Assembly (NCBI GenBank): GCA_020346225.1
Contig: CP070777.1
Coordinates: 193,423-227,413 of the forward strand
Length of the DNA: 33,991 nucleotides
Direction: 5' to 3'
From: Candidatus Zixiibacteriota bacterium
GTDB lineage: Bacteria > Zixibacteria > MSB-5A5 > GN15 > FEB-12
Position 1 is the first letter of the stretch. Every line of letters starts with the position of its first letter. The position numbers and the translations under genes were made by a program. Below, piece after piece: positions 12,937-32,821 of this stretch. The notes under the pieces are model-generated. The model did no database searches. It saw only the letters and a list, made by a program, of their open reading frames with translations, and was not told the origin of the DNA.

Positions 12937-12981
12937 CGTGAAGACCGTTTCGATTTCAGATAATCTGTCAGGAGAACTTTG

Positions 12982-13317: not shown

Positions 13318-13362
13318 GCCGGCGGCGAGCCGCCAGCGGCCGGCGGGCAGTTTTTGTTAAGT

Positions 13363-14184
13363 ATGGGAAGTGTTAACAACGTAGTGAAGATAGAGACGAT
13401 AAAAGACGCGCTGGGTGCCAGTGTGCTGGAGGGAGGCGGAGATCTCGGTACGGAGGTGGAGCATATCTATGCCTCCGACCTGATGAGCGATGTTCTGGCT
13501 TTCGGTAAGCCGCATTCGCTGCTTTTGACCGGTCTGGCCACCCAGCAGGCGATCATCTCAGCCCACATGGCCGAATTCAAAGGCGTTGTGCTGATTCGGG
13601 GCAAGCGCCCGAAGGACGGAGCTGAGAAATTCGCGCGCGACAACAACTTGGTGCTCTTGTCTACGGAGCTCGACATGTACGACGCCTGTGTGCGGATTGC
13701 CGCAAAGGAAGGCAAGACGCAGGTCGGACCACTCGCTGACGCCGTGGCCGGAAAGAGCGATGAGCTTCTCCTGAGCCATCAGTTCACGATCGAGGGGAGT
13801 GATTTCAGCAAAGCGGGCATGGTGTCGACGGAAATCAAGTCCATTCTCAAGAAGATCGGTTTCGACCCGCAGATCGTGCGCCGGGTGGCCATCTCGACCT
13901 ACGAGGGCGAGATGAACGTGGTTATGCACGCCGTACGAGCCAACGTTTACCTGGCCGTGACGCCGAAGATCATCGAAGTTATCATTGACGACGTGGGCAA
14001 GGGGATCCCGGACGTGGAACAGGCCATGCAGGAGGGTTTCACCACCGCCACCGAGGAGATGCGGGCGATGGGTTTCGGTTCCGGGATGGGGCTGCCGAAC
14101 ATCAAGAAGAATTCCGATGAGCTCGAGGTGACCAGCGAGGTCGGCCGGGGGACGACGGTGCGGATGAAATTCTCGGCCGAGTGA
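13363..14184 (+). CDS. DRTGG domain fused to anti-sigma-type histidine-kinase-like ATPase (HATPase_c)
   Basis: A 273-residue fusion. Residues 1-115 are a DRTGG domain (IYASDLMSDVLAFG, VVLIRGKRP, VVLLSTELDMYDA). Residues 135-273 are an ATP-binding domain of the RsbW/serine-kinase type: N-box E181-x3-N185, G1 box DDVGKGIP (209-216), G2 box GSGMGLPNI (239-247) and the final GTTVRMKF. No phospho-acceptor His domain or membrane segment is present, so it is not a normal sensor kinase. Such proteins recur beside HydABC-type hydrogenases (for example the Thermotoga cluster), where they are thought to regulate. ATG 13363 has no good ribosome site; TTG 13354 is an alternative. It sits directly before the [FeFe]-like sensor candidate. 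Confidence 0.88.
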   Translation: MGSVNNVVKIETIKDALGASVLEGGGDLGTEVEHIYASDLMSDVLAFGKPHSLLLTGLATQQAIISAHMAEFKGVVLIRGKRPKDGAEKFARDNNLVLLSTELDMYDACVRIAAKEGKTQVGPLADAVAGKSDELLLSHQFTIEGSDFSKAGMVSTEIKSILKKIGFDPQIVRRVAISTYEGEMNVVMHAVRANVYLAVTPKIIEVIIDDVGKGIPDVEQAMQEGFTTATEEMRAMGFGSGMGLPNIKKNSDELEVTSEVGRGTTVRMKFSAE

Positions 14185-14214
14185 GGGCTGCGAGGTAAAA
14201 TCGAAAGGACTGAA

Positions 14215-15486
14215 TTGACACAGTTTTATCACGCCCACAGAGTGGACACCCAGAAGTGTCGGGGTCACATGACGTGCATGCGGCACTGTCCCACTCAGGC
14301 TATCCGGGTGCGGAACGGCAAGGCGGAGATAAACGAAGAACTTTGTGTCGATTGCGGACAGTGTATCTCGGTCTGTCCGGCCGGTGCGATCGAGCCTATC
14401 GCCGACCCGGTCAACGAGATTTCTCAATTCAAGTACAAGGTCGTGGTACCGTCGCCGGTGCTGTACTCGCAGTTCGAGTGGACCACCCATCCTTATATTA
14501 TCCACGCGGCCCTGAAGCAACTGGGGTTCGATGAGGTCATTGACCTGACGACGTCTTCGGCGGCGATGGCCCGCGCGCTGGCCAGGTATATAGAAGATTA
14601 TCGCGGCCGGTTGCCGTTGATAGCCTCGTTCTGCCCCTGCGTGGTACGTCTGATCCAGGTGAAGTATCCGGACCTGGCGGAACTGGTGGTGCCGCTCGAC
14701 GTGCCCCGCGAGGTCACGGCCCGCGAAATAAGGAAGAACCTTCCGGGCAAACTGGGGCTCAAGCCGGAGGAGATCGGCGTTTTCTACCTGGCCACCTGCC
14801 CGGCCAAGATAGTCTCCATCAAGCAGCCGGCCGAAAAGGCCCGGTCCCATTTTGACGGGGTGGTTTCGATCAAGGACGCCTATTCGGTGCTGCTGCCGCA
14901 CGTGGTGGACATCCGCGAAGAGTTTGAGGAGACCCAGTTGCCGGACAATTTCACTTTTCACCCGGGCTGGGTGACGACGGGGAGCATTACCCAGGCGGCC
15001 GAGATGGAAAACTGGCTGGCGGTGTCCGGCCTCGATCATGTCATGCAGATACTCGATGATATCGAGAATTCAAGGCTGCGTAATGTCGATTTCGTCGAGG
15101 CCCTGGCGCATATGCTGGGTTGTATTGGCGGGCCGTACAATGTCGAGAACCCCTACGTGGCCCGTTCGAACAGTATCAAGCAGCGCGGGCGGTACGAGAA
15201 GCTGGTCCAGCTGGATGACGATGATATACAGCGGAAGCTCAAGGAGGGTTACTACTTCCTGGAGCATCCCATAAAACCCCGGCCGACGGCGTACTTCGAC
15301 ACCGACCTGGCCACTTCGATCAAGAGGATGAAGGAGAAGGAGCGGGTTTACCGGAAGCTGAGGCAGACCGATTGCGGTTGCTGCGGGTCGCCTACCTGTA
15401 TGGCGTTTGCCGAGGACTTTGTTCGCGGCGACGTCAAGTTCACGGACTGCATTTTTCTTTCCGAGAAGAGCAGCGAAGAAGATTAG
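14215..15486 (+). CDS. [FeFe]-hydrogenase-like Fe-S protein with degenerate H-cluster site
   Basis: A 423-residue cytoplasmic Fe-S protein. Residues 10-60 form a two-cluster ferredoxin domain, in which the second Cys of the first motif is His18 (C15, H18, C21, C25; then C44, C47, C50, C54). Residues 75-325 resemble the [FeFe] hydrogenase large-subunit domain but the active site is altered. Motif 1 is SFCPC (C140 kept, the proton-transfer Cys is Phe139), motif 2 is ATCPAK (C195), and motif 3 is ALAHMLGCIGG (C303 kept, the other Cys is His299). The C-terminus (387-412) is a CGCCGSPTC...DC Fe-S domain. It is therefore unlikely to make H2 and fits the H-cluster-less, sensor-like relatives. TTG 14215 with AAAGGA is the start. 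Confidence 0.85.
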   Translation: MTQFYHAHRVDTQKCRGHMTCMRHCPTQAIRVRNGKAEINEELCVDCGQCISVCPAGAIEPIADPVNEISQFKYKVVVPSPVLYSQFEWTTHPYIIHAALKQLGFDEVIDLTTSSAAMARALARYIEDYRGRLPLIASFCPCVVRLIQVKYPDLAELVVPLDVPREVTAREIRKNLPGKLGLKPEEIGVFYLATCPAKIVSIKQPAEKARSHFDGVVSIKDAYSVLLPHVVDIREEFEETQLPDNFTFHPGWVTTGSITQAAEMENWLAVSGLDHVMQILDDIENSRLRNVDFVEALAHMLGCIGGPYNVENPYVARSNSIKQRGRYEKLVQLDDDDIQRKLKEGYYFLEHPIKPRPTAYFDTDLATSIKRMKEKERVYRKLRQTDCGCCGSPTCMAFAEDFVRGDVKFTDCIFLSEKSSEED

Positions 15487-15528
15487 CGTAAATTAGAACC
15501 ATTGCCAGAGTTCCAGGGAGAAGGTGGC

Positions 15529-15981
15529 GTGAAAGACAAAGACTACAGCCGGCTGTTCGCCGAATTCGAGGGGGTGGAGGCCGATCTGATACCGGTCCTG
15601 GTTCGGATTCAGGAGAGAGACGGCTATATATCGGAGGAGGCGGTCAGGCGAGTTTCCCGTTTTCTGCGTCTGTCCGAGAACCAGATTTACGGGGTGGCTT
15701 CGTTTTATCCCAAGTTTCGTTTCACCGAACCCGGAAAGAAATCCATAAAAGTGTGTATGGGCACGGCCTGTCACGTTCGGGGCGGCCTGTTTCTTTCGGA
15801 GGCGGTGGGCTGGCAGCTCGGGGTCGGCATCGGCCAGACCACCGCAGACAAGCGATTCGATTTTCAGCGGGCCGGATGTCTGGGATGCTGCACCCTGGCC
15901 CCGGTCGTGATGGTCAACGAGGATGTTCACAGTCGGATGTCGGTCATTCGCCTGAAGGAGATTTTGGAGAAAGATGATTAG
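15529..15981 (+). CDS. hydC: HydC/NuoE-like [2Fe-2S] thioredoxin-fold subunit
   Basis: A 150-residue subunit of the 24-kDa complex I / HydC / HndA family. An N-terminal helical bundle (DLIPVLVRIQERDGYISEEA, RVSRFL, ENQIYGVASFYPKF) precedes a thioredoxin fold binding one [2Fe-2S] cluster through C76 and C81 (VCMGTACHVRG) and C117 and C121 (GCLGCCTLAP). It relays electrons to or from the flavin subunit encoded next. GTG 15529 is chosen over TTG 15502 because AGGGAG (15515-15520) is ideally spaced and the family homology starts there. Its stop overlaps the next start by eight bases, so the two products are made together in fixed ratio. Confidence 0.93.
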   Translation: MKDKDYSRLFAEFEGVEADLIPVLVRIQERDGYISEEAVRRVSRFLRLSENQIYGVASFYPKFRFTEPGKKSIKVCMGTACHVRGGLFLSEAVGWQLGVGIGQTTADKRFDFQRAGCLGCCTLAPVVMVNEDVHSRMSVIRLKEILEKDD

Positions 15982-17863
15982 CTTCGAGACGAGACGCGAG
16001 AAAGCCAGGCGCAAGTGGGACCAGCTCGAGCACAGCAAGGCCCCGGTCATCTATATCGGTTCGGCCACCTGCGGCCGCTCGGCCGGTGCCCTGAAGGTGC
16101 TCCAGGCGGTAAAGGAAACGCTCAAGGAACACAAGCTGAACGCCAAGATCGTGCAGGTGGGGTGTATCGGTCCGTGCTATATGGAGCCGCTGATGGACAT
16201 CAGGCTGGCCGATTCACCGCGTATCTGTTACGCCAATGTCAATCCCCAGCGCGCCAGGAAAATAATCGAAAGTTATCTGCTGAAGGGGAATCCGCTGCCG
16301 GAGCTCGCGGTGGGGCACTTCGGGGAAAACGGGCACCCCGTCACCGAAGGGATCCCCAGGTTTTTCGAGATACCGATGCTCCAGCCGCAGGTCAGGCTGG
16401 TGCTGCGAAACTGCGGCATGATAGATCCCGAGGATATCGATCACTACCTGGCCAATGACGGTTATCAGGGGCTGCTGGACGTTCTGTCGCAAAAGCCGGA
16501 GGAAGTGATCGAAATCGTCAAAGAAGCCGGTCTTCGCGGACGCGGCGGGGCGGGCTTTCCGACTTACCGCAAGTGGGAAATTTGCCGCAGCGTCCCGGGC
16601 GACCAGAAGTACATGATTTGCAACGTGTCGGAGGGCGACCCCGGCGCCTTCATGAACCGGGCGCTGATCGAGGGCGACCCGCACTGTGTTCTCGAAGGGC
16701 TCATGATAGCATCCTACGCTATCGGGGCCTCTCACGGTTACGTGTACATCAATTCGGATTACCATCTGGCCATCCAGCGGCTGCGCCAGGCGGCCGAACA
16801 GATGCGGGAATACGGTCTGCTGGGGGAGAACATTTTAGGAACCGGCTTCGACTTCGAGCTGACCATCAAGGAGGGAGCCGGGGCTTTCGTGTGCGGCGAG
16901 GAAACGGCCCTGATCGGTTCGGTGGAAGGTCGGCGGGGCATGCCGCGCTCGCGCCCGCCGTTTCCGGCGGTGGAGGGACTTTTCGGCAAGCCCACGATCA
17001 TCAATAACGTCGAGACCCTGGGCACGCTTCCCAACATAATCAGAAACGGGGCGGCCTGGTATCGCGGGTACGGCGTGAAAGGCAACTACGGTACGAAAAC
17101 GTTCTCGCTGGTCGGTTCGGTTCGCCGGGGCGGCCTTATCGAGGTTCCGCTGGGCACCAAGCTGAGGAGGATAATCTACGACATCGGCGGCGGTTCGTGG
17201 AAGCCGTTCAAGGGCGTCCAGACGGGGGGGCCTTCGGGCGGTTGCCTTTCCGAGGAGTCTCTGGATATTCCCGTGGAATATGAATCGATGCAGGCGGCCG
17301 GTTCGATTATGGGTTCCGGCGGCATGATTATCATGGATGAAGATACCTGCGTGGTGGACCTGGCTTTGTATTTTCTGAATTTCACGCAGAAGGAATCCTG
17401 CGGGAAATGCTCGCCGTGCCGGGTGGGCACCTGGCACATGGTGACGATACTGGACCGGATCGCCAGGGGCGAAAGCGATGCCGACGATCTGGCCAAACTC
17501 CAGACGCTGGCGGAGACGGCGGCGCGGGCGTCGCTGTGCGGTCTGGGGCAGACGGCTCCCAACCCGGTGCTGACGACGCTGCGGCATTTCCGGGCCGAGT
17601 ATCTGTCGCACGTTCAGGACAAATACTGCCGGGCGGCCGTCTGCCGGGAGCTGGTCGAGTACGACATCGATCCCGAAAAGTGCAACGGCTGCCAGCGGTG
17701 CATCGAGATCTGTCCCACGGAAGCCATTTCGGGGGCCAAGTCGGAGCTGCACCGGATCGACCAGCTGCGCTGCATAAAGTGCAAGGCCTGTTACGAAGTC
17801 TGCCGCTATGATCCTCTGGCGTCCGACGCTATCGTCATCAGATCCCGACGGAGGGCGTCATGA
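15974..17863 (+). CDS. hydB: HydB/NuoF-like FMN and NAD(H)-binding subunit of bifurcating type
   Basis: A 629-residue flavoprotein with the long architecture of electron-bifurcating HydB rather than plain NuoF. Residues 1-105 are a thioredoxin-like [2Fe-2S] domain (C33, C64, C68, C85). Next is the 51-kDa core with the FMN loop GRGGAGFPTYRKW (189-201), NVSEGDPGAF and CGEETALI. An SLBB-type linker is followed by the [4Fe-4S] site ESCGKCSPCRVGT / LCGLGQ. The last ~65 residues hold two [4Fe-4S] ferredoxin motifs, CNGCQRCIEICP and CIKCKACYEVCR. In the HydABC and NiFe-HydABCSL family this subunit carries the bifurcating FMN and couples NAD and ferredoxin. It overlaps its neighbours on both sides (8 bases, then ATGA). 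Confidence 0.94.
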   Translation: MISFETRREKARRKWDQLEHSKAPVIYIGSATCGRSAGALKVLQAVKETLKEHKLNAKIVQVGCIGPCYMEPLMDIRLADSPRICYANVNPQRARKIIESYLLKGNPLPELAVGHFGENGHPVTEGIPRFFEIPMLQPQVRLVLRNCGMIDPEDIDHYLANDGYQGLLDVLSQKPEEVIEIVKEAGLRGRGGAGFPTYRKWEICRSVPGDQKYMICNVSEGDPGAFMNRALIEGDPHCVLEGLMIASYAIGASHGYVYINSDYHLAIQRLRQAAEQMREYGLLGENILGTGFDFELTIKEGAGAFVCGEETALIGSVEGRRGMPRSRPPFPAVEGLFGKPTIINNVETLGTLPNIIRNGAAWYRGYGVKGNYGTKTFSLVGSVRRGGLIEVPLGTKLRRIIYDIGGGSWKPFKGVQTGGPSGGCLSEESLDIPVEYESMQAAGSIMGSGGMIIMDEDTCVVDLALYFLNFTQKESCGKCSPCRVGTWHMVTILDRIARGESDADDLAKLQTLAETAARASLCGLGQTAPNPVLTTLRHFRAEYLSHVQDKYCRAAVCRELVEYDIDPEKCNGCQRCIEICPTEAISGAKSELHRIDQLRCIKCKACYEVCRYDPLASDAIVIRSRRRAS

Positions 17864-20379
17864 AAAAGAAGAACGGCGCCGTGACCATCACCATGGACAA
17901 CCAGACCTACCAGGTGGCCCCGGGAATAACAATTCTGGAGGCCGCCCAGCAGAACAACATCGAAATTCCCACTCTCTGCGCGCACAAAGACCTGACGCCC
18001 TACGGCGGCTGCCGCATGTGCATCGTCGAGGTCGAAGGTATGCGCAACCTGCCCACCGCCTGCACCACGCCGATTTCCGACGGGATGATTATCCGGACCA
18101 ACACGGCTCAGGTGCAGTCGGTGAGGATGGAGATTCTGCAGTTGTTTTTGAGCGAGCACACTTCCAGCTGCCTGATTTGCGAAGACAAAGACCGCTGCCG
18201 GGAGTACATGGGCACCATTCGCAAGGTCGGTGTCACCACCGGTTGTCGCTATTGCTCCAACGACGGTCAGTGCGAGCTGCAGGACGTCGTGGAAAAGATG
18301 GAAGTGAAAGAAATCAAATACCCCATATACTACCGGAACCTCCGGGTCGAGAAGGAAGACCCCTTCTATGAGCGCAACTACAATCTGTGTGTTCTCTGCG
18401 GCCGCTGCGTGCGCATGTGCCAGGAGGTCCGGGTGGCTCATGTTCTGGCCTTCAATCACCGCGGCCGCGAAACGGTAATCGGGCCGGCCTACGGCCGGAC
18501 GCATATCGAGGCCGGCTGCGAGTTCTGCGGGGCCTGCGTGTCGGTCTGTCCGACCGGTTCGCTCACGGAAAAGGCGCGGGCCTATGAAGGCAAACCGGAC
18601 CGGGAAGAGCTCACGACGTGTTCGTTCTGCGGGGTGGGTTGCCAGATGCGACTGCTGGTGAAAGGGGACCGCATCATCGGCAGTCTGCCGGCGGACGACG
18701 CTCCGGTGAACGGCGGTCAGCTGTGCGTTAAGGGACGTTTCTGCATTACCGAGCTGGTCAGCGGTCCCAAGCGGTTGCTCAGGCCGTATCGTTATTTTGA
18801 CGGCACGGAGGCCGAAGTCACGCGGGAGGCGGCCATTGCGACGGCGGCCGAGAAGCTATCCGACTGCGCCCCCGACGAGTTCGGCATGCTGGTCTCGCCC
18901 AACTGCACCAATGAGGACCTCTATGTAGCTCAGAAGTTCGCCCGGGCGGTAATGAACTCGCACAATGTCGATACTTCGGCCAGGAGCTATTACGGACGCG
19001 GATTCAACGCTTATCTCGATTTGATGCGGAAGGCGGCGCCGCTGTCGGCGGTGCGGGAGGCTTCGGTAATCCTGTGTGTGGGGCTTGACACTCGTTTCGG
19101 GCGCTCGGTGGTCGGGGTGGAGCTGCGCCGGGCGGTGCGGCGCGGAGCCAGAATCATCACGATCAACCCGCGCGAACACAATCTCACTCTTATCGCCGAG
19201 GACTGGATTCAGACCATTCCCGGTCAGAAGACGGAGGCCCTCCACAAGCTGGTGGAGTTGACCGGCAAGGGGGCATCGGGGGCGCGCAAGGGCCCCCGTG
19301 GTGTGAGCAAGGAACTGGTGCATGCCGCCGAGACCCTAGCTAAAGCCGAAAGCGCGGTTATCCTGGTTGGCTCGGAATTCCTCCAGTACGATTCGAGCGC
19401 CGAGATTCTGGAGAGTGTCAGGCAGCTGGCGCAGAACACCGGAGCGGGCGTGCTGCCCCTGCCGGCTCAAAACAACCTGTACGGATCGCTCATGATGGGC
19501 GCCTACCCGGAGCTGATTCCCGGCGGACATGCCGCGGCATCGACCAAAGCCTACGGGGCGTTGAAGAAAGCCTGGGGGCTGAAAGGCAAAACCGTTTCCG
19601 GCGGCTTCAACGCCGCCTCCCTCGGTTCGGGCAAGAAGCTGAAAGTTCTTTATCTGGTCGGCGAGAACTGCCCGGTTCCGGCCGGGGAAGCGGCCGACTT
19701 TATCATCTACCAGAACATATATCCGCCGGGCGAGCGTTTTCACGCCGACCTGGTCCTGCCGGCGGCCGCGTTCACCGAGTCGGACGGAACGTTCATTAAC
19801 GGTGAGGGCAGAGTTCAGCGGGTGCGCAGGGCGGTGGAGCCTCCGGGCGACGCCCTGCCCGACTGGCAGATCCTGTGTCTGATCGCCCGCAAGATGGGTG
19901 TTGAAGGTTTCGACTTCGCGAATGTAGAAAGCATCCACCGGGAAATGGCGGGCCTGGTGGACGGTTTCAAGAGCTTCAAAAAGCCCGCGCGTAAGCCGCA
20001 GGCGTACCGGTCGACGGTGGCGCTGGACGTTCCCGCGGGGAAGCTTCCGCCGGCCGGGCAGGTTAATCAGAAATATCCGTTCATGCTCAGCGCCTCGATA
20101 ACGGAACACTCACACCGCGGTTTTTCGCTGTCGGATTGGGTGGAGGGGACCAAGCCGTTATTCGCGGAGGAGCGGTTGAGTATCAGCCCCGCCGACGCCC
20201 GCAAGGCCCGCATCAGCGACGGCGACGAAGTGATAGTTACTTCGCGCGGTTTCGAGCGCGTCTGGCCGGCCCGCATAAGACCCGAGCAGGCCGAGGGAAC
20301 GCTGCATGTTACGCTGTATCAGGCCCAGGCCGTCAACCCCAACCCGCATCCGGTGAAAATGAGGAAAAAGAATGTTTAA
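17860..20379 (+). CDS. NuoG / formate dehydrogenase alpha-like Fe-S scaffold lacking the catalytic Cys/Sec
   Basis: An 839-residue protein. The N-terminus binds a [2Fe-2S] cluster (C40, C51, C54, C68) and a His-ligated [4Fe-4S] cluster (H100, C104, C107, C113). An extra CxxC-x5-C group follows (C129, C132, C138), then two ferredoxin clusters (C177-C187 and C220-C230) and a molybdopterin-oxidoreductase-type cluster (C254, C257, C261, C289). The rest resembles the molybdopterin-binding body of formate dehydrogenase. However, where active enzymes have the Cys/Sec-His of CHSP or UHAP, this protein has SARSYYGRGF, so formate oxidation is not expected. It probably acts as the HydA-like electron wire between HydBC and a hydrogenase. 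ATGA start-stop overlap with hydB; 8-base overlap with nfnA. Confidence 0.88.
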   Translation: MKKKNGAVTITMDNQTYQVAPGITILEAAQQNNIEIPTLCAHKDLTPYGGCRMCIVEVEGMRNLPTACTTPISDGMIIRTNTAQVQSVRMEILQLFLSEHTSSCLICEDKDRCREYMGTIRKVGVTTGCRYCSNDGQCELQDVVEKMEVKEIKYPIYYRNLRVEKEDPFYERNYNLCVLCGRCVRMCQEVRVAHVLAFNHRGRETVIGPAYGRTHIEAGCEFCGACVSVCPTGSLTEKARAYEGKPDREELTTCSFCGVGCQMRLLVKGDRIIGSLPADDAPVNGGQLCVKGRFCITELVSGPKRLLRPYRYFDGTEAEVTREAAIATAAEKLSDCAPDEFGMLVSPNCTNEDLYVAQKFARAVMNSHNVDTSARSYYGRGFNAYLDLMRKAAPLSAVREASVILCVGLDTRFGRSVVGVELRRAVRRGARIITINPREHNLTLIAEDWIQTIPGQKTEALHKLVELTGKGASGARKGPRGVSKELVHAAETLAKAESAVILVGSEFLQYDSSAEILESVRQLAQNTGAGVLPLPAQNNLYGSLMMGAYPELIPGGHAAASTKAYGALKKAWGLKGKTVSGGFNAASLGSGKKLKVLYLVGENCPVPAGEAADFIIYQNIYPPGERFHADLVLPAAAFTESDGTFINGEGRVQRVRRAVEPPGDALPDWQILCLIARKMGVEGFDFANVESIHREMAGLVDGFKSFKKPARKPQAYRSTVALDVPAGKLPPAGQVNQKYPFMLSASITEHSHRGFSLSDWVEGTKPLFAEERLSISPADARKARISDGDEVIVTSRGFERVWPARIRPEQAEGTLHVTLYQAQAVNPNPHPVKMRKKNV

Positions 20380-21223
20380 GGTTGTATCCTGCCGCATGAT
20401 TGTTCCCAACATCCACGTGCTGACAGTGGAGGCCCCGGCGGTGGCGCGGGAAGCCAAGCCGGGACAGTTCGTGATAATCCGCGCCGAGGAAGAAGGCGAA
20501 CGGGTACCGCTGTCGATTGCCGACTGGGATGAACAAATGGGAACGGTGACGGTGGTGCTGATGAATGTCGGCCGGACCACCGACCGACTGGCCTCGCTGG
20601 ATGAAGGCCAGGAGATTCCCACGGTGGTCGGTCCCCTGGGCAACGCCACCGATATCGAGAAGTACGGGACGGTGATGTGTATCGGCGGGTGCTACGGCAT
20701 CGGCAGTATTTTCCCTATCGCCCGCGCCCTGAAGGCCGCCGGAAATAAGGTCATCGCTCTTCTGGAGGCGCGCAGTTCCTATCTCTTTTACTGGGAAGAT
20801 CGTTATAAGGGCGTCGTGGACAGGGTGGTTCATATCACGCGTGACGGCAGTAAGGGCTACAAGGGCCATCTGGATCGACTTCCTGAAATAATGAAGGATA
20901 TCGGCGAACCGGTCGACCGGGTAATCGTGAACGGCTGCACCTACTGTGTCGCGCGGAGTTCCGAGGTTACGCGGCCGCTGGGTATCAGTACCTGGGTGAG
21001 CCTCAACCCGATTATGATCGACGGCACCGGCATGTGCGGCGTTTGCCGGGTGACGGTGGGTGATGCCACCCGCTTTGCCTGCGTCCACGGGCCGGATTTT
21101 GACGGTCACCAGGTTGACTGGGCGGAGCTTCTCCAGCGCCGCAAGACTTACATGATGGAAGAGGTGGTTCCGCTCAGGACCAGCAAATGTGAAGAGCATT
21201 CTCAAGACGTTCGGGGAACATAG
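20372..21223 (+). CDS. nfnA: NfnA: FAD/[2Fe-2S] small subunit of NADH-dependent ferredoxin:NADP oxidoreductase
   Basis: A 283-residue ferredoxin-reductase-family flavoprotein, the usual length of NfnA/SudB. The FAD-binding barrel shows GQFVIIRAEEEGERVPLSIAD and the NAD domain begins VMCIGGCYGIGSIFP, with catalytic-type Gly/Cys. The C-terminal [2Fe-2S] site is built from GTGMCGVCRVTVG and FACVHGPDFDGHQVDW, the signature that separates NfnA and sulfide dehydrogenase beta from plain ferredoxin reductases. With NfnB it interconverts NADH plus reduced ferredoxin and NADPH by flavin-based bifurcation. Sequence alone does not exclude a sulfide dehydrogenase role. Its start lies within the end of the NuoG-like gene, so translation is coupled to the electron-bifurcating scaffold. 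Confidence 0.93.
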   Translation: MFKVVSCRMIVPNIHVLTVEAPAVAREAKPGQFVIIRAEEEGERVPLSIADWDEQMGTVTVVLMNVGRTTDRLASLDEGQEIPTVVGPLGNATDIEKYGTVMCIGGCYGIGSIFPIARALKAAGNKVIALLEARSSYLFYWEDRYKGVVDRVVHITRDGSKGYKGHLDRLPEIMKDIGEPVDRVIVNGCTYCVARSSEVTRPLGISTWVSLNPIMIDGTGMCGVCRVTVGDATRFACVHGPDFDGHQVDWAELLQRRKTYMMEEVVPLRTSKCEEHSQDVRGT

Positions 21224-21225
21224 AA

Positions 21226-22635
21226 ATGGCAGAGCCGAAAAAGAAGAAGAAACAACTGGACCTAAACCGGCGCGAGATGCCCAAGCAGTTGCCGGAGATT
21301 CGGGCGCACAATTTCAACGAGGTGGCCCTGGGGTATGCGGCGGAAACGGCTATCGAAGAGGCGACCCGCTGCATCCAGTGCCCCAAGCCCAAATGCGTTG
21401 ACAACTGCCCGGTGGAGATCAACATTCCCGGTTTCATAAAGGCCATCGCCGAGAAGGATTTTCCGCGCGGCATTCGCATCCTGAAGGAGAAGAACTGCCT
21501 GCCCGCCATCTGCGGCCGGGTGTGCCCTCAGGAGGAGCAGTGCGAGGAAACCTGTGTTCTCTCGAAGAAGGGCGGTCAGATTGCCATCGGCCGGCTGGAA
21601 CGCTTCCTGGCCGACTGGGAAGCCGCCCAGGGCAAACTCGAGATGCCGCGGATACCCAAACGTACGGGCAAGAAGGTGGCCGTGGTGGGCGGCGGCCCGG
21701 CCGGACTGACCGTGGCCGGAGATCTGATCCTGCTGGGTCACGATGTCACTATCTACGAGGCCCTGCATAAGATGGGTGGCGTGCTGGTCTATGGCATCCC
21801 GGAGTTTCGTCTGCCCAAGGTCATCGTCAATCGCGAGGTCGATTATCTGAATAAACTCGGCGTGGAGATAGTCACCGACTTCGTGGTGGGCAAGACCAGA
21901 AAGGTCGACTCGATTTTAGAGGAATACGATGCCGTTTTTGTCGGTTCCGGGGCCGGCCTGCCGTGGTTTATGGAGATTCCGGGCGAAAACCTCAACGGCA
22001 TCTACTCGGCCAACGAGTACCTGACGCGTCTGAATCTCATGAAGGGCTTTTTGTTCCCCGAATATCATACGCCGGTGAAGTATCATAAGAAAGTGGCCGT
22101 GGTCGGCGGCGGCAACGTGGCCATGGACTGCGCCCGCAGCGCCCTGCGATTGGGAGCGGAGTCGCGCATCATATACCGCCGGTCGCGTGAAGAATTGCCG
22201 GCGCGGCTGGAAGAGGTCGAAAATGCCGAGGAGGAGGGTGTGATTTTCGAGTTTCTGACTCTGCCGCTTCGGTATATCGGCGACGAGAACGGATGGGTGA
22301 AACAGATGGAGATTATGCGCATGGAACTGGGCGAACCGGATTCGTCGGGGCGACGCCGGCCGGTGCCGATCGAAGGTTCCGAGACAATCGTCGATGTCGA
22401 CGCGGTGGTGTGCGCGATCGGCAACAGCCCCAACCCGCTTATTGCGTCCACGACGCCGGGACTCGAAGTGGGAAAGAAGGGCAATATTGTCGCCGACGAG
22501 GAAACGGGCAAAACCTCACGGGCCAAGATCTGGGCGGGGGGTGATGTCGTCACCGGGGCGGCGACGGTGATTCTGGCCATGGGTGCCGGCCGTAAGGCAG
22601 CCAAGTCTATCCACGAGTATCTGACGACTCAGTAG
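21226..22635 (+). CDS. nfnB: NfnB: FAD/[4Fe-4S] large subunit of NADH-dependent ferredoxin:NADP oxidoreductase
   Basis: A 469-residue glutamate-synthase-small-subunit-like flavoprotein. The N-terminal domain binds two [4Fe-4S] clusters through CIQCPKPKCVDNCP (49-61) and CGRVCPQEEQCEETC. It is followed by the FAD Rossmann motif VAVVGGGPAGLTVAG near residue 150 and the NADPH motif VAVVGGGNVAMDCARSALRL near residue 290, with the Arg-rich YRRSREELP typical of NADPH preference. No glutaminase/GltB gene is adjacent, while NfnA is two bases upstream, which decides for Nfn over glutamate synthase. This subunit carries the bifurcating FAD in the known Nfn enzyme. It is the last gene of the operon, with a terminator 34 bases beyond. 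Confidence 0.93.
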   Translation: MAEPKKKKKQLDLNRREMPKQLPEIRAHNFNEVALGYAAETAIEEATRCIQCPKPKCVDNCPVEINIPGFIKAIAEKDFPRGIRILKEKNCLPAICGRVCPQEEQCEETCVLSKKGGQIAIGRLERFLADWEAAQGKLEMPRIPKRTGKKVAVVGGGPAGLTVAGDLILLGHDVTIYEALHKMGGVLVYGIPEFRLPKVIVNREVDYLNKLGVEIVTDFVVGKTRKVDSILEEYDAVFVGSGAGLPWFMEIPGENLNGIYSANEYLTRLNLMKGFLFPEYHTPVKYHKKVAVVGGGNVAMDCARSALRLGAESRIIYRRSREELPARLEEVENAEEEGVIFEFLTLPLRYIGDENGWVKQMEIMRMELGEPDSSGRRRPVPIEGSETIVDVDAVVCAIGNSPNPLIASTTPGLEVGKKGNIVADEETGKTSRAKIWAGGDVVTGAATVILAMGAGRKAAKSIHEYLTTQ

Positions 22636-22668: not shown

Positions 22669-22696
22669 GGCCGCCCGCCAGGGAGGGCGGCCTTTT
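22669..22696 (+). terminator. rho-independent terminator of the bifurcation operon
   Basis: Perfect 8-bp stem GGCCGCCC (22669-22676) / GGGCGGCC (22685-22692), 8-base loop, short TTTT tail. The tail is short, so read-through into the hydrogenase genes is possible. Confidence 0.75.
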
Positions 22697-23063: not shown

Positions 23064-24056
23064 ATGGGTTTGAGCCGAAGAGAGTTTCTGGAGTTGCTTG
23101 GCTGCACTACCTCGGCAGTGGTCCTGCCCCGATTTCTCGGGCTGGGTCAGATACCGGAGCCGATCAAAGTCGCCCTTGCCGAGCAGCAGAAGTATAACAA
23201 TATCCCGGTCATCTGGCTTCAGGGTCAATCGTGTGCCGGGTGTTCTGTTTCGACCATCAACACGGTTCACCCGGATATCGCCTCGGTTTTGACGGAGACC
23301 ATAAGTCTCCAGTTTCATCCCAATGTTATGGGCGGTACCGGTGATCTGGCGGTCGGCATGCTCGAGCATGCTATCGAGCATCTGAGCGGCGAGTTCGTGC
23401 TGGTGGTGGAAGGTTCGATACCTACCGCCGAAGCCGGGGCGTACTGCAAGACCGGTGAGAAGGATGGAAAAGCGGTCACGACGGAAGAGTGGGTGAAACG
23501 GTTGGGTTCGGCGGCCAAAGCCGTACTCGCGGTGGGAAGCTGCGCCGCTTTCGGCGGCATCCCGGCAGCCAGACCTGACGTTACCGGAGCAAAGCCGGTT
23601 TCAGAGATCGTGCCGGGGGCTACCATCGTTAATATCCCCGGCTGCCCGTCGCATCCGGACTGGCTGATCGGGACAGTGGCGCACGTTCTGCTTTTCGGTT
23701 TGCCGGAACTGGATGAGCACAAGCGTCCCACCATGTTCTTCGGCAAGCTGGTTCACGAGCAGTGCGAACGCCGGGCCGACTTCGAAAACGGTATTGCCGC
23801 GGAGGATTTCGGGGAGAAGGGCTGCCTTTTCAACCTGGGATGCAAAGGTGTTGAAACCTATTGTGATGTGTGCATTCGCGGTTGGAACAACAATGTCAAC
23901 TGGTGTATCCGCAGCGGCTCGCCGTGCATCGGTTGCACGCAGCCGGAATTTCCCGACTTCGCCGGTCAGGGAATCTACGCCAAACTGCCGGTTGAGAAAA
24001 CACACGGCATAAAATGGACGGGGCCATACGCCCCCAAAGCCGCCGTCAAGGGGTAA
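23064..24056 (+). CDS. [NiFe] hydrogenase small subunit with twin-arginine signal, predicted three [4Fe-4S] clusters
   Basis: A 330-residue electron-transfer subunit of group 1-type [NiFe] hydrogenase. The N-terminus LSRREFLELLG matches the twin-arginine motif and is followed by a modest hydrophobic stretch, with possible cleavage at ALA-EQQ near residue 40. The proximal cluster begins at C57 and C60 (QSCAGCS). Distal ligands are HEQC and CLFNLGCKG, and medial ligands end in SPCIGCTQPEF. Where classical enzymes have Pro in the NWPV motif (medial [3Fe-4S]), this one has NWCI, which predicts a [4Fe-4S] centre. There is no C-terminal membrane anchor. AGGAG (23052-23056) fits ATG 23064. The large subunit follows after 36 bases; no cytochrome b subunit is seen. 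Confidence 0.94.
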   Translation: MGLSRREFLELLGCTTSAVVLPRFLGLGQIPEPIKVALAEQQKYNNIPVIWLQGQSCAGCSVSTINTVHPDIASVLTETISLQFHPNVMGGTGDLAVGMLEHAIEHLSGEFVLVVEGSIPTAEAGAYCKTGEKDGKAVTTEEWVKRLGSAAKAVLAVGSCAAFGGIPAARPDVTGAKPVSEIVPGATIVNIPGCPSHPDWLIGTVAHVLLFGLPELDEHKRPTMFFGKLVHEQCERRADFENGIAAEDFGEKGCLFNLGCKGVETYCDVCIRGWNNNVNWCIRSGSPCIGCTQPEFPDFAGQGIYAKLPVEKTHGIKWTGPYAPKAAVKG

Positions 24057-24092: not shown

Positions 24093-25652
24093 ATGAGCAC
24101 GACCATAACACTCGACCCGATCACACGCATTGAGGGTCATCTCAAGGTGGAGATAGAGGTAGACGGCGGCGAGGTTACCGATGCCCGTTGCTCGGGCGAA
24201 ATGTTCCGGGGTCTGGAGAAGATTCTCATCGGTCGAAATCCGGTCGACGCCAACCAGATCACCCAGCGGATCTGCGGCGTCTGTCCAGCCGGCCACGCCC
24301 AGGCGTCCAGCCTCACGTTAGACAGCGCCTTTGGTGTTACGCCGCCGGAAAACGGCCGGCTGATACGAAACCTGGTGCTGGGTTCGAACTATCTGCAGTC
24401 GCATATTTTGCATTTTTACCATCTGGCCGCCCTGGACTTTGTTGACATAACGGCCATTCTCAATTACACCGGAAGCGATTCCGGCTTGAATCGGGTCAAA
24501 GATTGGGCCAAGTCCGAAGTGGACCTGGGGGTAAAGGGGTCGGTGGCGCCATTCTTGCCGCGGTACGAAGGTGACTATGCCACCGATGCGGAGTTCAACC
24601 TGGCGGCGATTTCCCATTACCTGAAGGCGCTGGAGATTCGAAGGAAAGCTCACGAGATGCTGGCCATATTCGGCGGGCGCATGCCGCACGCGGTGGCCAT
24701 CGTTCCCGGAGGGTGCTCGGAAAACGTTACGGTTAAGAAAATCCTCGCCTTTTCCTCCAGGCTCCGCGAGATCCAGGATTTTGTAGAGAATGTGTATATT
24801 CCCGATGTGCTCGCCGTTGCGGGCATGTACGCCTCGTACTTCGGCATAGGCAAGGGCTGCGGTAATCTGCTCGCCTACGGAGTGTTTGAAGAAAATGAAA
24901 GCGGCAGCACCAAGCTTCTGCCGCCGGGCACCTACATCAACGGAAAGGTTTCAGCCTTTTCCGAAGCCAAGATCGCGGAGCATGTAAAGCACTCCCGGTA
25001 TTCATCGACCAGCAAACTGCACCCCTCGAAGGGGGAGACGTCGCCCGACACGGCCAAGGGCAAAGCCTATTCGTGGCTGAAGGCGCCCCGCTACGACGGG
25101 CATGTCACGGAAGTCGGTTCACTGGCCCGGGTGGCGGTGGCTCATCTGACCGGCAGCAATACGGCGCTGTCGGAGATGGTGACAGGGACACTGGACAAGT
25201 TCAGTGCTCCGGTAACGGCTCTGTTCTCGGTGCTGGGCCGGCACGCAGCCAGAGCGCTGGAGAGCAAGCTTGTCGCCGACCGGTGTGCCGAGTGGGTCGG
25301 GCAGCTCAAGCCCGGCAAGCCGGTTCACACTGCCTATAAGGTGCCTAAAGAAAGCACCGGTGTTGGTCTGACCGAGGCCCCGCGCGGCGCGCTGGGGCAC
25401 TGGATCTCGATCAAGGGCAAGAGAATCGACCGGTATCAGTGTGTCGTGCCGACGACATGGAACGCCGGACCGCGTGACGATAAAGGCAACCCCGGACCCA
25501 TGGAGCAGGCTCTTATCGGGACGCCGATTGCCGACGCCGCCAATCCTATCGAGGCGGCCCGGGTGGTTCGCTCGTTCGATCCCTGTATCGCCTGCGCCGT
25601 GCATGTAATGACGCCGGACAGGAATCTGGTGTCGCAGTTTCGCGTCGTATAG
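24093..25652 (+). CDS. [NiFe] hydrogenase large (catalytic) subunit
   Basis: A 519-residue catalytic subunit, somewhat shorter than the ~550-600 of many group 1 enzymes. The Ni-Fe centre is held by RICGVCPAGH (C61, C64) near the N-terminus and DPCIACAVH (C498, C501, H504) at the C-terminus. Both Cys pairs are intact and no selenocysteine is needed. After His504 there are 15 residues that a maturation protease should remove; that protease is the next gene. The motif ITRIEGHLKVEIEVD at the start is standard. It oxidises or forms H2 and passes electrons to the small subunit. It has no signal peptide, so if exported it travels folded with the Tat-tagged small subunit. AAGGAG precedes ATG 24093. 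Confidence 0.96.
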   Translation: MSTTITLDPITRIEGHLKVEIEVDGGEVTDARCSGEMFRGLEKILIGRNPVDANQITQRICGVCPAGHAQASSLTLDSAFGVTPPENGRLIRNLVLGSNYLQSHILHFYHLAALDFVDITAILNYTGSDSGLNRVKDWAKSEVDLGVKGSVAPFLPRYEGDYATDAEFNLAAISHYLKALEIRRKAHEMLAIFGGRMPHAVAIVPGGCSENVTVKKILAFSSRLREIQDFVENVYIPDVLAVAGMYASYFGIGKGCGNLLAYGVFEENESGSTKLLPPGTYINGKVSAFSEAKIAEHVKHSRYSSTSKLHPSKGETSPDTAKGKAYSWLKAPRYDGHVTEVGSLARVAVAHLTGSNTALSEMVTGTLDKFSAPVTALFSVLGRHAARALESKLVADRCAEWVGQLKPGKPVHTAYKVPKESTGVGLTEAPRGALGHWISIKGKRIDRYQCVVPTTWNAGPRDDKGNPGPMEQALIGTPIADAANPIEAARVVRSFDPCIACAVHVMTPDRNLVSQFRVV

Positions 25653-25666
25653 GGGCCAAGCCGGCT

Positions 25667-26131
25667 GTGAAGAAAAAATCCAGAACCGTCATAATGGGCG
25701 CCGGTAACGTTCTCATGCGGGATGATGGTATCGGCGTCCATGTCGTTCGGGCCCTGTGCCACGAGGGACCTTTGCCCGAAGGTGTAGAAGTGCTCGATGC
25801 CGGGACGGCGGCAGCCGACTATCTGGCCGCCATGGGCGAAGTGAGTCGCCTGATTGTAGTCGATGCTCTCAGGGGAGGCGGCGAACCGGGGACTATCTAC
25901 CAGCTTTCGCCGCAGGAAATTCGTGAAAAGCCCTCGGCCCGGATGTCACTGCATCAGATGAGCCTGCTCGAGGCGCTCAGCCTCAGCCGGCTGACCGGCG
26001 GCGCTCCCGATGAGGTGATTATCATCGGTATCGAGCCAAAGACGATCACCGAGGGTGTGGCGCTATCGCCCGAGGTTGAAGAGAAGATACCGAAAGTCAT
26101 CAAAACGATTGTGGCCCTGGCCGGTGCCTGA
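25667..26131 (+). CDS. Hydrogenase maturation endopeptidase (HyaD/HybD/HycI family)
   Basis: A 154-residue nickel-sensing protease that trims the C-terminal tail of the large subunit after Ni insertion. The signature GAGNVLMRDDGIGVHVV (D19), VVDAL (D66) and SLHQMSL (H96) supplies the three nickel ligands known from HybD. The length is typical. It starts at GTG 25667, only 14 bases after the large-subunit stop and with a weak ribosome site, so it is probably translated through coupling. It ends the hydrogenase transcript. The HypABCDEF factors that build the Ni-Fe centre are not in this window and must be elsewhere. Confidence 0.92.
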   Translation: MKKKSRTVIMGAGNVLMRDDGIGVHVVRALCHEGPLPEGVEVLDAGTAAADYLAAMGEVSRLIVVDALRGGGEPGTIYQLSPQEIREKPSARMSLHQMSLLEALSLSRLTGGAPDEVIIIGIEPKTITEGVALSPEVEEKIPKVIKTIVALAGA

Positions 26132-28466: not shown

Positions 28467-29522
28467 CTATCTCAGGATGAAACCGTCTTTGAAAGGATCA
28501 TCCGGATCCAGCACGAATTGGTGGCGGCCGGTGATGAAGGCGCGGCCCTCAACCTCGGGCACGACGGCCGCGTGCGGGCCAAAGGTGGTTTTTTCAACGA
28601 CGCGGCCGGTGAAGGTGCTGCCGATGATGCTCTCGATAACGATGGCCTGGCCGACGGTTATCTCGCGGCGGGCATAATGGATGGCCAGGCGGGCGCTCAC
28701 GCCGGTCCCGGTGGGACTGCGGTCAACCTCGCCCTCGGCGAAGATGCATACGTTGCGGCTGTGATTTTCCCCGGAAACGGGCGGCCCGACGAATATGGTT
28801 CCGTACAGGAAATTCAAGTCCGGTTCAAAGGGGTGCTCGATATTGCGGCCCTTCATCACGGCGCGTTTTATCTGCATGCCTTTTTCGATCAGCGGTCGGA
28901 AGTTGTCGGGAGTCAGTTTCAGGCCGACCTGTCCGGCGTCGACAAAGGCATAGTATGCTCCGCCGAAAGCGAGGTCGTAACGAATCGTGCCGAGTTCGGG
29001 CACATGAACTTCGGCGTCGAGAGCGGCGGCGTAGGACGCCACGTTGTGGAAGCGGACGCTGGTGACTTTGCCATCGGTTATCCTGGCGTGTGATGTTACC
29101 GGCCCGGCCGGGGTGTCGATTCTAACGGTGGTTTCCGGTTCGGTTATGGGAAGCAGGCCGATTTCCAGAACTACCCTGGTGACGGCGATGATGCCGTGTC
29201 CGCACATGGTGCTGAAGCCTTCGTTGTGCAGAAACAGCACGCCGAAGTCGGCTCCGGCGGTGACGGGCGGGACGAGGATGCACCCGTACATGTCGGCGTG
29301 GCCGCGCGGCTCCCACATGAGGGCGGTGCGCAGGTGATCTAGGTGCTCCTGCGCGTAGCGGCGGCGCTGGAGAATTGTGTCTCCGGGAATTTCGGGCAGG
29401 CCGCCCAGTATGACGCGAAGCGGTTCACCCTCGGTATGGGCGTCGATCGTAACGATTCTCGTTTTTTCTCCGTCGGGGGCACGGCCGAAAAGGTCTGACA
29501 GTTTCTTCGAAAAGGATTCCAT
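28467..29522 (-). CDS. Proline racemase-family enzyme with Cys/Thr site: trans-3-hydroxy-L-proline dehydratase-like
   Basis: A 351-residue member of the proline racemase superfamily. The first catalytic position is Cys107 in STMCGHGII. The second, Cys in racemases and 4-hydroxyproline epimerases (DRSPCGTG), is Thr271 here (DRSPTGTG). In known enzymes, including human L3HYPDH, the Cys/Thr pair marks trans-3-hydroxy-L-proline dehydratases, which make pyrroline-2-carboxylate. It starts at ATG 29522, 43 bases after the glycyl radical enzyme on the same strand, so it is probably the last gene of that operon. The pairing with a 4-hydroxyproline dehydratase supports a hydroxyproline substrate, both isomers being present in collagen. 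A pyrroline-carboxylate reductase is not in the window. Confidence 0.88.
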   Translation of the reverse strand: MESFSKKLSDLFGRAPDGEKTRIVTIDAHTEGEPLRVILGGLPEIPGDTILQRRRYAQEHLDHLRTALMWEPRGHADMYGCILVPPVTAGADFGVLFLHNEGFSTMCGHGIIAVTRVVLEIGLLPITEPETTVRIDTPAGPVTSHARITDGKVTSVRFHNVASYAAALDAEVHVPELGTIRYDLAFGGAYYAFVDAGQVGLKLTPDNFRPLIEKGMQIKRAVMKGRNIEHPFEPDLNFLYGTIFVGPPVSGENHSRNVCIFAEGEVDRSPTGTGVSARLAIHYARREITVGQAIVIESIIGSTFTGRVVEKTTFGPHAAVVPEVEGRAFITGRHQFVLDPDDPFKDGFILR

Positions 29523-29565
29523 ATGTGCTACCCAATCCCCTCGGCCCCGGGCGGTGACGGCACGG

Positions 29566-31929
29566 CTAGGCCAGGCCGTGTTCGGTGCGCCTGATTATCT
29601 CGTTTTGAAGGCTTTCGCCGAGATCGACAAAGTAGTCACTGTAGCCCGCCACCCGGACAATCAGGTCGCGGTACTGCTCCGGATTCTCCTGGGCTCTGCG
29701 GAGGGTGTCGGCGGTGACGACATTGAACTGGATGTGATGGCCGTCCATGGTAAAATAGGCCCTGACCAGGTGACGCAGTTTTTCGAGGCCGTCCTCGGAC
29801 TGAAGCACCTGCGGGGTGAATTTTTGGTTGAGAAGGGTGCCGCCGGTACGGACGTGGTCGATTTTGGCGGCCGATTTCAGAACGGCCGTGGGGCCTTTGC
29901 GGTCGGCCCCCTGGACCGGCGAGATGCCTTCCGACAGCGGCAAACGGCTCGTGCGGCCGTAGGGCAGGGCGCCGATAACGCTGCCGAAGTAAACGTGGCA
30001 GGTCGTCGGCAGAAGATTGATACGGAAATGACCGCCCCTGGTGTTGGGCCGGCCCTCCACCGACTCGAAGAAAGCTTCGAACACGTCGCGCATGATACCG
30101 TCAGCGTAATCGTCGTCGTTGCCGTAGCGCGGCGTTTCTTCCACGAGGCGCGTACGCAGATCGTCAAAACCCTCGAAATCGGCTTTCATGGCATCGAGAA
30201 GTTCAGTCATGGTAACACGCCTGTTGTCGAACACGTGATACCTGATAGCCGCCAGCGAGTCGGTAATACTGCCGAGCCCGACACCCTGGACATATGACGT
30301 GTTGTACCTGGCGCCGCCGTTATTGTAATCTTTGCCCGTCCTGATGCAGTCGTCGATAAGAATCGACATGAACGGCGCCGGCAGGTGCTCGGCCCACAGC
30401 CGTTCGATGACGATGTTGCCTTTAATTTTTATATCGATGAAGTGCTGAAGCTGTTTCTTGAAGGCCTCGAACAACTCCTCGAAGCTGCTGAATTTGTCGG
30501 CCTGGCCGGTGGCCAGGCCGATCTTCTTGCCGGTGCGCGGGTCGAGGCCGTTGTTGAGAGTGATTTCCAGCACCTTGGTCAGGTTGAAATAACCGGTGAG
30601 AATGTAGCTTTCCTTGCCGAAGGCTCCCGTTTCCACGCAGCCGCTGCAGCCGCCGTTGCGGGCATCCTGCACCGATTTGCCCTGGCGCAGCATTTCCTGA
30701 ACGAGCGCATCGGTATTGAACAGGGAGGGCTGTCCGTAGCCGGTTCTTATGATCTGCAGGGCGCGGTCCAGAAGGCGATTGGGGCTCTTCTTGCTTACCT
30801 GAACCATGGAGCTGGGCTGCACCAGGCGCATCTCTTCGATAACGTCGAGGAGGATGTAACTCATTTCGTTGGCGGCGTCCCGGCCGTTTTCATCGACGCC
30901 GCCGATGTTTATCAGGCAGAAATCGGTATAGGTATTGCTTTCTTCGGCGGTCACCTTAACCTTGGGCGGGGCCGGCTGATTGTTGAATTTGACCCAGAAG
31001 GCCTGCAGCAGTTCGCGGGCTCTTTCTTCGGTCAGCTTACCGGTTCGGATATCTTTCGTATAGAACGGCAGCAGGTGCCGGTCGAGTCTTCCGGGATTGA
31101 ACGAGTCCCAGGTGTTGAGTTCGGTGATGACGCCCAGGTGCACGAACCAGTAATACTGCAGAGCCTCCCAGAAGCTCGTCGGGGCGTGAGCCGGCACCCG
31201 GCGGCAGATTTCGGCCATCGACTCGAGCTCCGCTTTCCTGGCGGGGTCGCTCTCGGCGGCGGCCAGCTCCGTCAGTTTCTCGGCGTGACGCGCGGCGTAG
31301 AGCATTATGGCGTCGGCCGCAATAGACATGGCCTGCAGCTCTTCGCGCTTTTCGGACGCCTGCGGGTCGGTGTCGAAGTCGAGATTCTCCAGGCTGGCCC
31401 GGATATCCTTTTTGAAATCGATAAACCCCTTGCGGTAAATCTTATCGTCGAGGACGGTATGGCCGGGGGCACGCTGCTCCATGAATTCCGTGAACAGACC
31501 GGCCTCGTAAGCCTCGACCCACTCCGGGTCGACCTGGCTGAAGATCCGATCCCTGATGGAGTGTCCCGACCACTGGGGCATGATAGTCTCTTTCTGTTCC
31601 CTGCGGGCTTCGTCGGAGACGTCGAACGAGACTTTTTCCCGGGAGTTAAGGATATCAAAGTCCTGGAGAGTGTGGGTGCAGATTTCGGGATAGGTGGGTG
31701 TGGCCTTGGGGGCGGGACCCCGCTCGCCGACAATCAACTCGCCCCGGTTGATACAAAGCTCTTTGTTCTCCAGCAGGTACTTGAACGCCAGAGCCCGTGC
31801 CACCGGCACGGAAACGTGTTCGGCCTGCCCGGACCCGTAGAATTCCGTAAGCAGCCGGGCCCTTTCCATCGATATGCACGGCCGGGCCGACAGGCTTTGC
31901 TCACGAAGGGCTTTTATGCGCTCGTTCAC
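29566..31929 (-). CDS. hypD: Glycyl radical enzyme, trans-4-hydroxy-L-proline dehydratase type
   Basis: A 787-residue glycyl radical enzyme, nearly the same length as the Clostridioides difficile hydroxyproline dehydratase. The active-site loop GGCSGCVETGAFGKE places the thiyl Cys at 431 and the general base Glu at 433, and the radical loop RVAGYSDYFVDLG places the glycyl radical at Gly762. The GCSGCVE..GAFGKE sequence is what I know from hydroxyproline dehydratase rather than pyruvate formate-lyase or diol dehydratases. It should dehydrate trans-4-hydroxy-L-proline to pyrroline-5-carboxylate in the cytoplasm and is destroyed by oxygen. GTG 31929 has GGAGGA upstream and lies 6 bases after the activase stop. 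The symbol hypD here is unrelated to hydrogenase maturation HypD. Confidence 0.9.
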   Translation of the reverse strand: MNERIKALREQSLSARPCISMERARLLTEFYGSGQAEHVSVPVARALAFKYLLENKELCINRGELIVGERGPAPKATPTYPEICTHTLQDFDILNSREKVSFDVSDEARREQKETIMPQWSGHSIRDRIFSQVDPEWVEAYEAGLFTEFMEQRAPGHTVLDDKIYRKGFIDFKKDIRASLENLDFDTDPQASEKREELQAMSIAADAIMLYAARHAEKLTELAAAESDPARKAELESMAEICRRVPAHAPTSFWEALQYYWFVHLGVITELNTWDSFNPGRLDRHLLPFYTKDIRTGKLTEERARELLQAFWVKFNNQPAPPKVKVTAEESNTYTDFCLINIGGVDENGRDAANEMSYILLDVIEEMRLVQPSSMVQVSKKSPNRLLDRALQIIRTGYGQPSLFNTDALVQEMLRQGKSVQDARNGGCSGCVETGAFGKESYILTGYFNLTKVLEITLNNGLDPRTGKKIGLATGQADKFSSFEELFEAFKKQLQHFIDIKIKGNIVIERLWAEHLPAPFMSILIDDCIRTGKDYNNGGARYNTSYVQGVGLGSITDSLAAIRYHVFDNRRVTMTELLDAMKADFEGFDDLRTRLVEETPRYGNDDDYADGIMRDVFEAFFESVEGRPNTRGGHFRINLLPTTCHVYFGSVIGALPYGRTSRLPLSEGISPVQGADRKGPTAVLKSAAKIDHVRTGGTLLNQKFTPQVLQSEDGLEKLRHLVRAYFTMDGHHIQFNVVTADTLRRAQENPEQYRDLIVRVAGYSDYFVDLGESLQNEIIRRTEHGLA

Positions 31930-31935
31930 CGGGAG

Positions 31936-32706
31936 TCATCCTCCGATTTTGACATCGAAACCGTGAGACTTAAATCGCTCCGCCGCCGCTTCTATCTCGG
32001 TTTCGGACTGGTTGCGAACCCGTTCGAGCCGCACGGGGAGCTTATATCTTTTACGTTTATCCTCCCCGAATCGGTTGTAGGGCAGAAGGCTCACCCGTCG
32101 GACGGCCGGCAGGTCATCCAGAAATGACAGGATGGATTCGAGGTTGTCCTCGGTGTCGGTGATACCCGGTATCAGGGGGATACGTAGTTGTATTCTGCGC
32201 CCGCTGCGGGCCAGCAGCTTGAGGTTTTCCAGAACGGGGCCGTTGGAAACGCCGGTATACGTTCGGTGCCGCTCGTCATCCATAATTTTCAGGTCGTAGA
32301 GGAACAGGTCGACCAGGTCGGCAACTTTGTCGAAATCGCCCGGCGGCGCGTAACCGCAGGTATCGACCGCGGTGGCAATCTGTCGCCGCCGACATTCCTT
32401 AAGCAGGGCCACAAGAAACTCCGGCTGGGCCATTGGCTCGCCGCCGGAAAAAGTAGCGCCGCCCCCGGATTGATCGTAGAATACCCGGTCTTTCTCAATT
32501 TCTTCCATGACATGGGCCACTGTTACCCGGCGGGTTTTGGCGGTCGGATCGGTTGGCGCCTCGCCTCGACCTTCGGGATTGTGGCACCACCAGCAGTCCA
32601 TGGGGCAGCCGGTCAGAAAGACGGTGGTGCGGATTCCCGGGCCGTCATGGATAGCGAACTTCTTGATATCGAAAATAGCGCCTGTTTTGTCCTGCTGAGC
32701 GACCAT
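31936..32706 (-). CDS. Glycyl radical enzyme activase (radical SAM), short form
   Basis: A 256-residue radical SAM protein that installs the glycyl radical on the enzyme encoded next. The start AIFDIKKFAIHDGPGIRTTV and the cluster motif GCPMDCWWCHNPEG (Cx3Cx2C) are those of glycyl radical enzyme activases. SGGEP and later LRIPLIPGIT complete the SAM-binding barrel. The Cys-rich ferredoxin-like insert that many such activases carry after the radical SAM motif is missing; that stretch (EGRGEAPTDPTAKTRR) has no Cys. The open frame extends to 32970, but ATG 32706 matches the family start. It lies 6 bases upstream of the dehydratase gene, so the two are co-translated. Confidence 0.92.
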   Translation of the reverse strand: MVAQQDKTGAIFDIKKFAIHDGPGIRTTVFLTGCPMDCWWCHNPEGRGEAPTDPTAKTRRVTVAHVMEEIEKDRVFYDQSGGGATFSGGEPMAQPEFLVALLKECRRRQIATAVDTCGYAPPGDFDKVADLVDLFLYDLKIMDDERHRTYTGVSNGPVLENLKLLARSGRRIQLRIPLIPGITDTEDNLESILSFLDDLPAVRRVSLLPYNRFGEDKRKRYKLPVRLERVRNQSETEIEAAAERFKSHGFDVKIGG

Positions 32707-32821
32707 ATGAAGGCCCGCCCCATATGTCTGTTCATGTTGTTCCCGGTATGAATATAGCACATTCGGCCGGCGGCTGCCAGCGAACTTGTGGCGGGCGGCA
32801 TTACGGCGTCGGTCGCAGAGA

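Follow-up and report, generated by a model that had tools for sequence, protein, structure and literature searches.

A soluble, probably Tat-exported [NiFe] uptake hydrogenase encoded beside a separate cytoplasmic NuoEFG-like/Nfn operon in a Zixibacteria genome

Introduction

The analyzed window is a 33,991-nucleotide stretch of the genome of a Candidatus Zixiibacteriota bacterium (contig CP070777.1). It encodes the small subunit of a [NiFe] hydrogenase, whose N-terminus carries a twin-arginine (Tat) motif, next to a set of genes for cytoplasmic redox proteins. The original prediction saw a conflict between this export signal and a cytoplasmic partner complex, and offered two ways out: either the hydrogenase leaves the cytoplasm and works with an unlinked partner, or the leader is a vestige and the enzyme stays inside. 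Our analysis makes it very probable that this is a soluble uptake hydrogenase of the HysAB/HynAB type, exported by Tat, served by an unlinked partner and independent of the neighbouring operon.

Results and discussion

Hydrogenase structural genes and maturation protease

The small subunit gene (23064-24056, + strand) is an open reading frame of 330 amino acids (aa) with an ATG start codon, the first 43 codons of which span positions 23064-23192. The N-terminus of its product reads MGLSRREFLELLG / MGLSRREFLELLGCTTSAVVLPRFLGLGQIPEPIKVALAEQ / MGLSRREFLELLGCTTSAVVLPRFL. A profile search matched the protein to TIGR00391 with 260 bits, above the cut-off of 179.5, and both small-subunit Pfam domains, PF14720 and PF01058, are present, which assigns it to the small-subunit family with a C-terminal Fe-S domain. 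No C-terminal helix that could serve as a membrane anchor was found in the small subunit. Models of group 3 hydrogenases give scores of just 22-23 bits. In the cytoplasmic, NAD(P)-linked enzymes of that group, the HydD/FrhG-type small subunit lacks a leader and is accompanied by a dedicated diaphorase, whereas a leader is present here.

The large subunit (24093-25652, + strand), recognized by its motifs and family matches, has no leader. It contains the active-site motifs RICGVCPAGH and DPCIACAVH, in agreement with the patterns RxCGxCxxxH and DPCxxCxxH, and a C-terminal extension for processing, VMTPDRNLVSQFRVV. The third gene (25667-26131, + strand) encodes a maturation protease of the HyaD/HybD type (TIGR00072, PF01750). 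Among solved structures, both subunits are closest to the [NiFeSe] hydrogenases from the periplasm of Desulfomicrobium and Desulfovibrio, followed by periplasmic [NiFe] enzymes. We nevertheless did not file the enzyme as a [NiFeSe] hydrogenase, because the position of the selenocysteine is occupied by a cysteine of the DPCIAC motif, encoded by TGC and not by TGA; in addition, the scores do not reach the curated cut-offs of the models NF045520 and NF045518. Judged by its sequence, the segment 23064-26131 is predicted to encode an ordinary two-subunit periplasmic H2-oxidizing enzyme of a known family, together with its maturation protease. We found no paper with both Zixibacteria and hydrogenase in the title.

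On the opposite strand, the hydrogenase genes are adjoined by genes (28467-32970) encoding a trans-4-hydroxyproline dehydratase, which belongs to the glycyl radical enzymes, as well as its activase and a hydroxyproline enzyme resembling proline racemase; this group stays together in congeners G002 and G003. The same strand also encodes a membrane protein (32822-33991) that has several passes and, at its C-terminus, a cytochrome c domain with a single haem; its gene is cut by the end of the window.

Comparison with known hydrogenases

The enzyme resembles HysAB of Desulfovibrio and Desulfomicrobium (1cc1, 2wpn, 4kl8) in having two soluble subunits with a Tat leader on the small one, a maturation protease, and a cysteine replacing proline before the medial Fe-S cluster (NWC). 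It differs from HysAB in the cysteine of the large subunit, where HysAB has selenocysteine, and in one presumed medial-cluster cysteine that is moved by two residues. Like Desulfovibrio HynAB (1yqw, 1h2r), it is predicted to be a soluble two-gene periplasmic uptake hydrogenase that lacks a membrane subunit of its own, although the similarity to HynAB is lower than to HysAB (about 198 versus 261 bits for the small subunit). HynAB has proline, not cysteine, before the medial cluster. With Escherichia coli hydrogenase 2 (HybOABC) it shares its place among group 1 enzymes with a Tat export signal, and HybA/HybB-like proteins are encoded in the genome and, in G018, next to a homologous small subunit. 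Here, however, no linkage exists between the HybA/HybB-like genes and the hydrogenase, whose small subunit has no C-terminal membrane anchor.

The apparently displaced medial-cluster cysteine lies in the region of C267 and C270 (23862-23873), either of which may bind the cluster. Cysteines stand at positions +7 and +10 after the cysteine of the GCKG motif, and there is none at the canonical position +9. The ninth-position cysteine is kept in 76 other small-subunit matches, while cysteine at +7 but not at +9 occurs in this enzyme and six relatives (L006, L043, L044, L045, L046 and L047), a small clade spread across Zixibacteria, Deltaproteobacteria and Syntrophomonas. Within this clade, the second cysteine at +10 is found in the members from Zixibacteria.

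Twin-arginine leader of the small subunit

The leader region (23064-23180, + strand) consists of SRREFL at residues 4-9 and an uncharged stretch at residues 11-22, with a possible cleavage site, ALA, around residues 37-39. The original prediction named the motif SRREFLELLG, and this reading is confirmed. The twin-arginine motif is not a chance occurrence, since only 3 of 1731 other open reading frames (at least 150 aa, from 80 related loci) have [ST]RR.F[LMIV] within their first 60 residues; two of these three look like true Tat leaders. In addition, HysB of D. vulgaris (2wpn) aligns with the small subunit from residue 1, including the twin-arginine leader.

The only NCBIfam family responding to the leader is TAT_signal_seq. 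As its score, 14.2 bits, falls just under the cut-off of 16.7, the leader is recognizable but not textbook. The uncharged stretch after the twin arginine has 12 residues, compared with 15-24 in the congeners, and an arginine (R23) is located in or after the hydrophobic stretch. LLGC (residues 11-14) was considered as a lipoprotein signal and rejected, because the hydrophobic stretch follows the cysteine instead of preceding it. The cysteine itself, Cys14 (in LLGC or LMGC; 23100-23108, residues 13-15), is found in all four congeners and is absent from the next relative, L045.

The leader has the consensus MxLSRREFLEL(L/M)GCT in all four species of the genus, in which overall small-subunit identity is 70-74%, and it is kept in every close relative. 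In a tree of 80 small-subunit homologues, based on the region after the leader only, 64 rows are Tat-bearing and 16 are Tat-less. The protein encoded in the window falls in a wholly Tat-bearing set, while the Tat-less rows form two distant clades, one clostridial and one composed of 33-35% identical proteins. The clostridial proteins (L080, L086, L087, L088, L090, L091, L092, L095 and L096) are nested among Tat-bearing relatives and possibly represent a cytoplasmic group 1-like hydrogenase. At the two loci examined, L091 and L096, the Tat-less small subunit is encoded together with a large subunit and a protease-like protein; L091 additionally has Hyp-like genes.

According to the second alternative of the original prediction, the leader is vestigial and the hydrogenase remains in the cytoplasm, where it feeds H2-derived electrons to the NuoEFG-like/Nfn complex. 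The sub-threshold TAT_signal_seq score is in line with this, and the clostridial clade indicates that Tat loss is possible in a related hydrogenase. A vestige would decay, however, and the strict conservation of the leader within the genus argues against it; we consider this alternative extremely unlikely. Since the leader is kept in the genus and in close relatives, and the genome encodes both TatC (E-value 2e-68) and TatA (E-value 9e-20), export by Tat is the expected fate of the hydrogenase.

The neighbouring NuoEFG-like/Nfn operon

The genes upstream of the hydrogenase (12979-22635, + strand) encode a DRTGG protein, a HATPase, an [FeFe]-hydrogenase-like scaffold, NuoE, NuoF, and NuoG-like, NfnA-like and NfnB-like proteins. 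The earlier observation that these redox proteins lack export signals holds, as read from their sequences. The scaffold is the only PF02906 protein of the genome. The NuoG-like subunit (17860-20379) joins HydA/NuoG-type Fe-S domains to a molybdopterin-type domain, apparently without the Cys/Sec of formate dehydrogenases.

Adjacency in the window, as well as nearness in two congeners, would fit a cytoplasmic hydrogenase working with this complex. The 429 bp between the end of the operon and the start of the hydrogenase genes nevertheless contain a strong predicted intrinsic terminator just 3' of the Nfn-like gene (22669-22692, + strand), a hairpin of 8 G-C pairs with a T-rich tail and a folding z-score of -3.6. 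A sigma-70 promoter scan of this gap gave no match, though sigma-70 may not be the type used by the host. A hairpin was also found after the Nfn-like gene in G003, but not in G001 and G002, where further genes follow. In the two latter genomes, the operon is separated from the hydrogenase by three genes, whose products are an isochorismatase-like protein (so named from sequence only), a flavin oxidoreductase and a radical-SAM-like protein.

The two units are within about 11 kb of each other in three of the four congeners, which is best read as one inherited arrangement. In G003 they are more than 1 Mb apart on a 3.27-Mb contig, with the hydrogenase at 2,228,404 and the scaffold gene at 76,208. 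The eight-gene operon, from the DRTGG to the NfnB-like gene, is complete in five genomes of other genera (G010, G012, G016, G028 and G056), none of which gave a match to the small subunit. Among 13 genomes from outside the genus that have a full-length scaffold homologue, only G018 has a match to the small subunit, on another contig. Given the predicted terminator, the unlinking in G003, the intervening genes in G001 and G002, and the full operon in hydrogenase-less genomes, the operon is a separate unit and the hydrogenase is not among its subunits. The supposed conflict between leader and partner complex is thus not borne out, and the same evidence speaks against a vestigial leader.

Electron partners

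The genome encodes many multihaem cytochromes. It also contains two unlinked modules (492-495 kb and 2.788-2.793 Mb), in each of which multihaem class III cytochromes are encoded together with a membrane protein of the NrfD family and a ferredoxin-like Fe-S protein that has a Tat leader. The NCBIfam models they match best are HmcB/HybA, HmcC/HybB and HmcA; because every match stays under its equivalog cut-off, we call the modules Hmc/HybAB-like. The earlier statement that no quinone-linked subunit is encoded here is correct for the window but not for the genome. At least one such module is present in each of the four congeners. In G018, which belongs to the same family, the gene of a homologous small subunit directly precedes an Fe-S/NrfD gene pair whose products are 57-59% identical to those of the 493-kb module. 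Hmc-like modules occur in relatives lacking the hydrogenase as well, so that their distribution does not discriminate and we only infer that they are the likely membrane partners of the enzyme. It is believed that the periplasmic hydrogenases of Desulfovibrio reduce cytochrome c3, which trades electrons with Hmc or Tmc (PMC4215793).

In the proposed pathway, the large subunit would be processed first, after which the folded heterodimer would be exported by Tat via the leader of the small subunit, with the large subunit presumably travelling as a passenger, as in the family. In the periplasm H2 would be oxidized, and the electrons would travel along three Fe-S clusters to c-type cytochromes with several haems and from there, probably, to the unlinked Hmc/HybAB-like modules.

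Electrons from the exported enzyme might instead cross back via an Hmc-like module and reach the NuoEFG-like/Nfn complex, a route that would make the neighbourhood one trans-membrane pathway. The closeness of the two units in three of four congeners and the presence of the modules are compatible with this, and the Hmc complex of Desulfovibrio is believed to trade electrons both with cytochrome c3 in the periplasm and with an unknown partner in the cytoplasm (PMC4215793). However, genera that lack the hydrogenase have the complete operon, the two units are unlinked in G003, and inspection of the sequence stretches retrieved around the modules showed no HmcE/F-like genes for cytoplasm-facing proteins. 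We regard such a pathway as unlikely. A more elaborate version, in which the Hmc-like modules join hydrogenase and operon so that electrons from H2 end up in NAD(P)H and ferredoxin, and the altered medial-cluster ligation tunes the relay, is very unlikely.

A dedicated cytoplasmic group 3b-like NAD(P)H hydrogenase, with relatives of HydB, HydG and HydD and a large subunit, is encoded at about 2.188-2.193 Mb, and HypD is encoded at 312 kb. As NAD(P)H chemistry can be left to the group 3b-like enzyme, the exported hydrogenase need not play a dual role; the presence of the group 3b-like enzyme also argues against a cytoplasmic role based on a vestigial leader.

Four observations count against a soluble, exported enzyme with an unlinked partner: the Tat score under the cut-off, R23, the nearness of the two units in three of four congeners, and the modules of hydrogenase-less relatives. 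Of the two ways out in the original prediction, export with an unlinked partner is nonetheless the one supported, by the conserved leader, TatA and TatC, and the Hmc/HybAB-like modules; retention of the leader in all four congeners and all close relatives does not favour a vestige. It had been anticipated that a Tat signal conserved in all homologues, together with a periplasmic electron acceptor, would point to simple export. This is largely what we found: candidate acceptors are encoded in the genome and the leader is kept in the genus and close relatives, though not in the two Tat-less clades.

The apparent paradox is thereby removed, and the case warns against taking an adjacent operon for a partner complex. 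The apparent displacement of a medial-cluster cysteine is a small structural variant, the one unusual feature of an otherwise known enzyme type. For Zixibacteria, the locus puts on record a soluble, probably periplasmic enzyme of H2 uptake whose likely partners are Hmc/HybAB-like modules.
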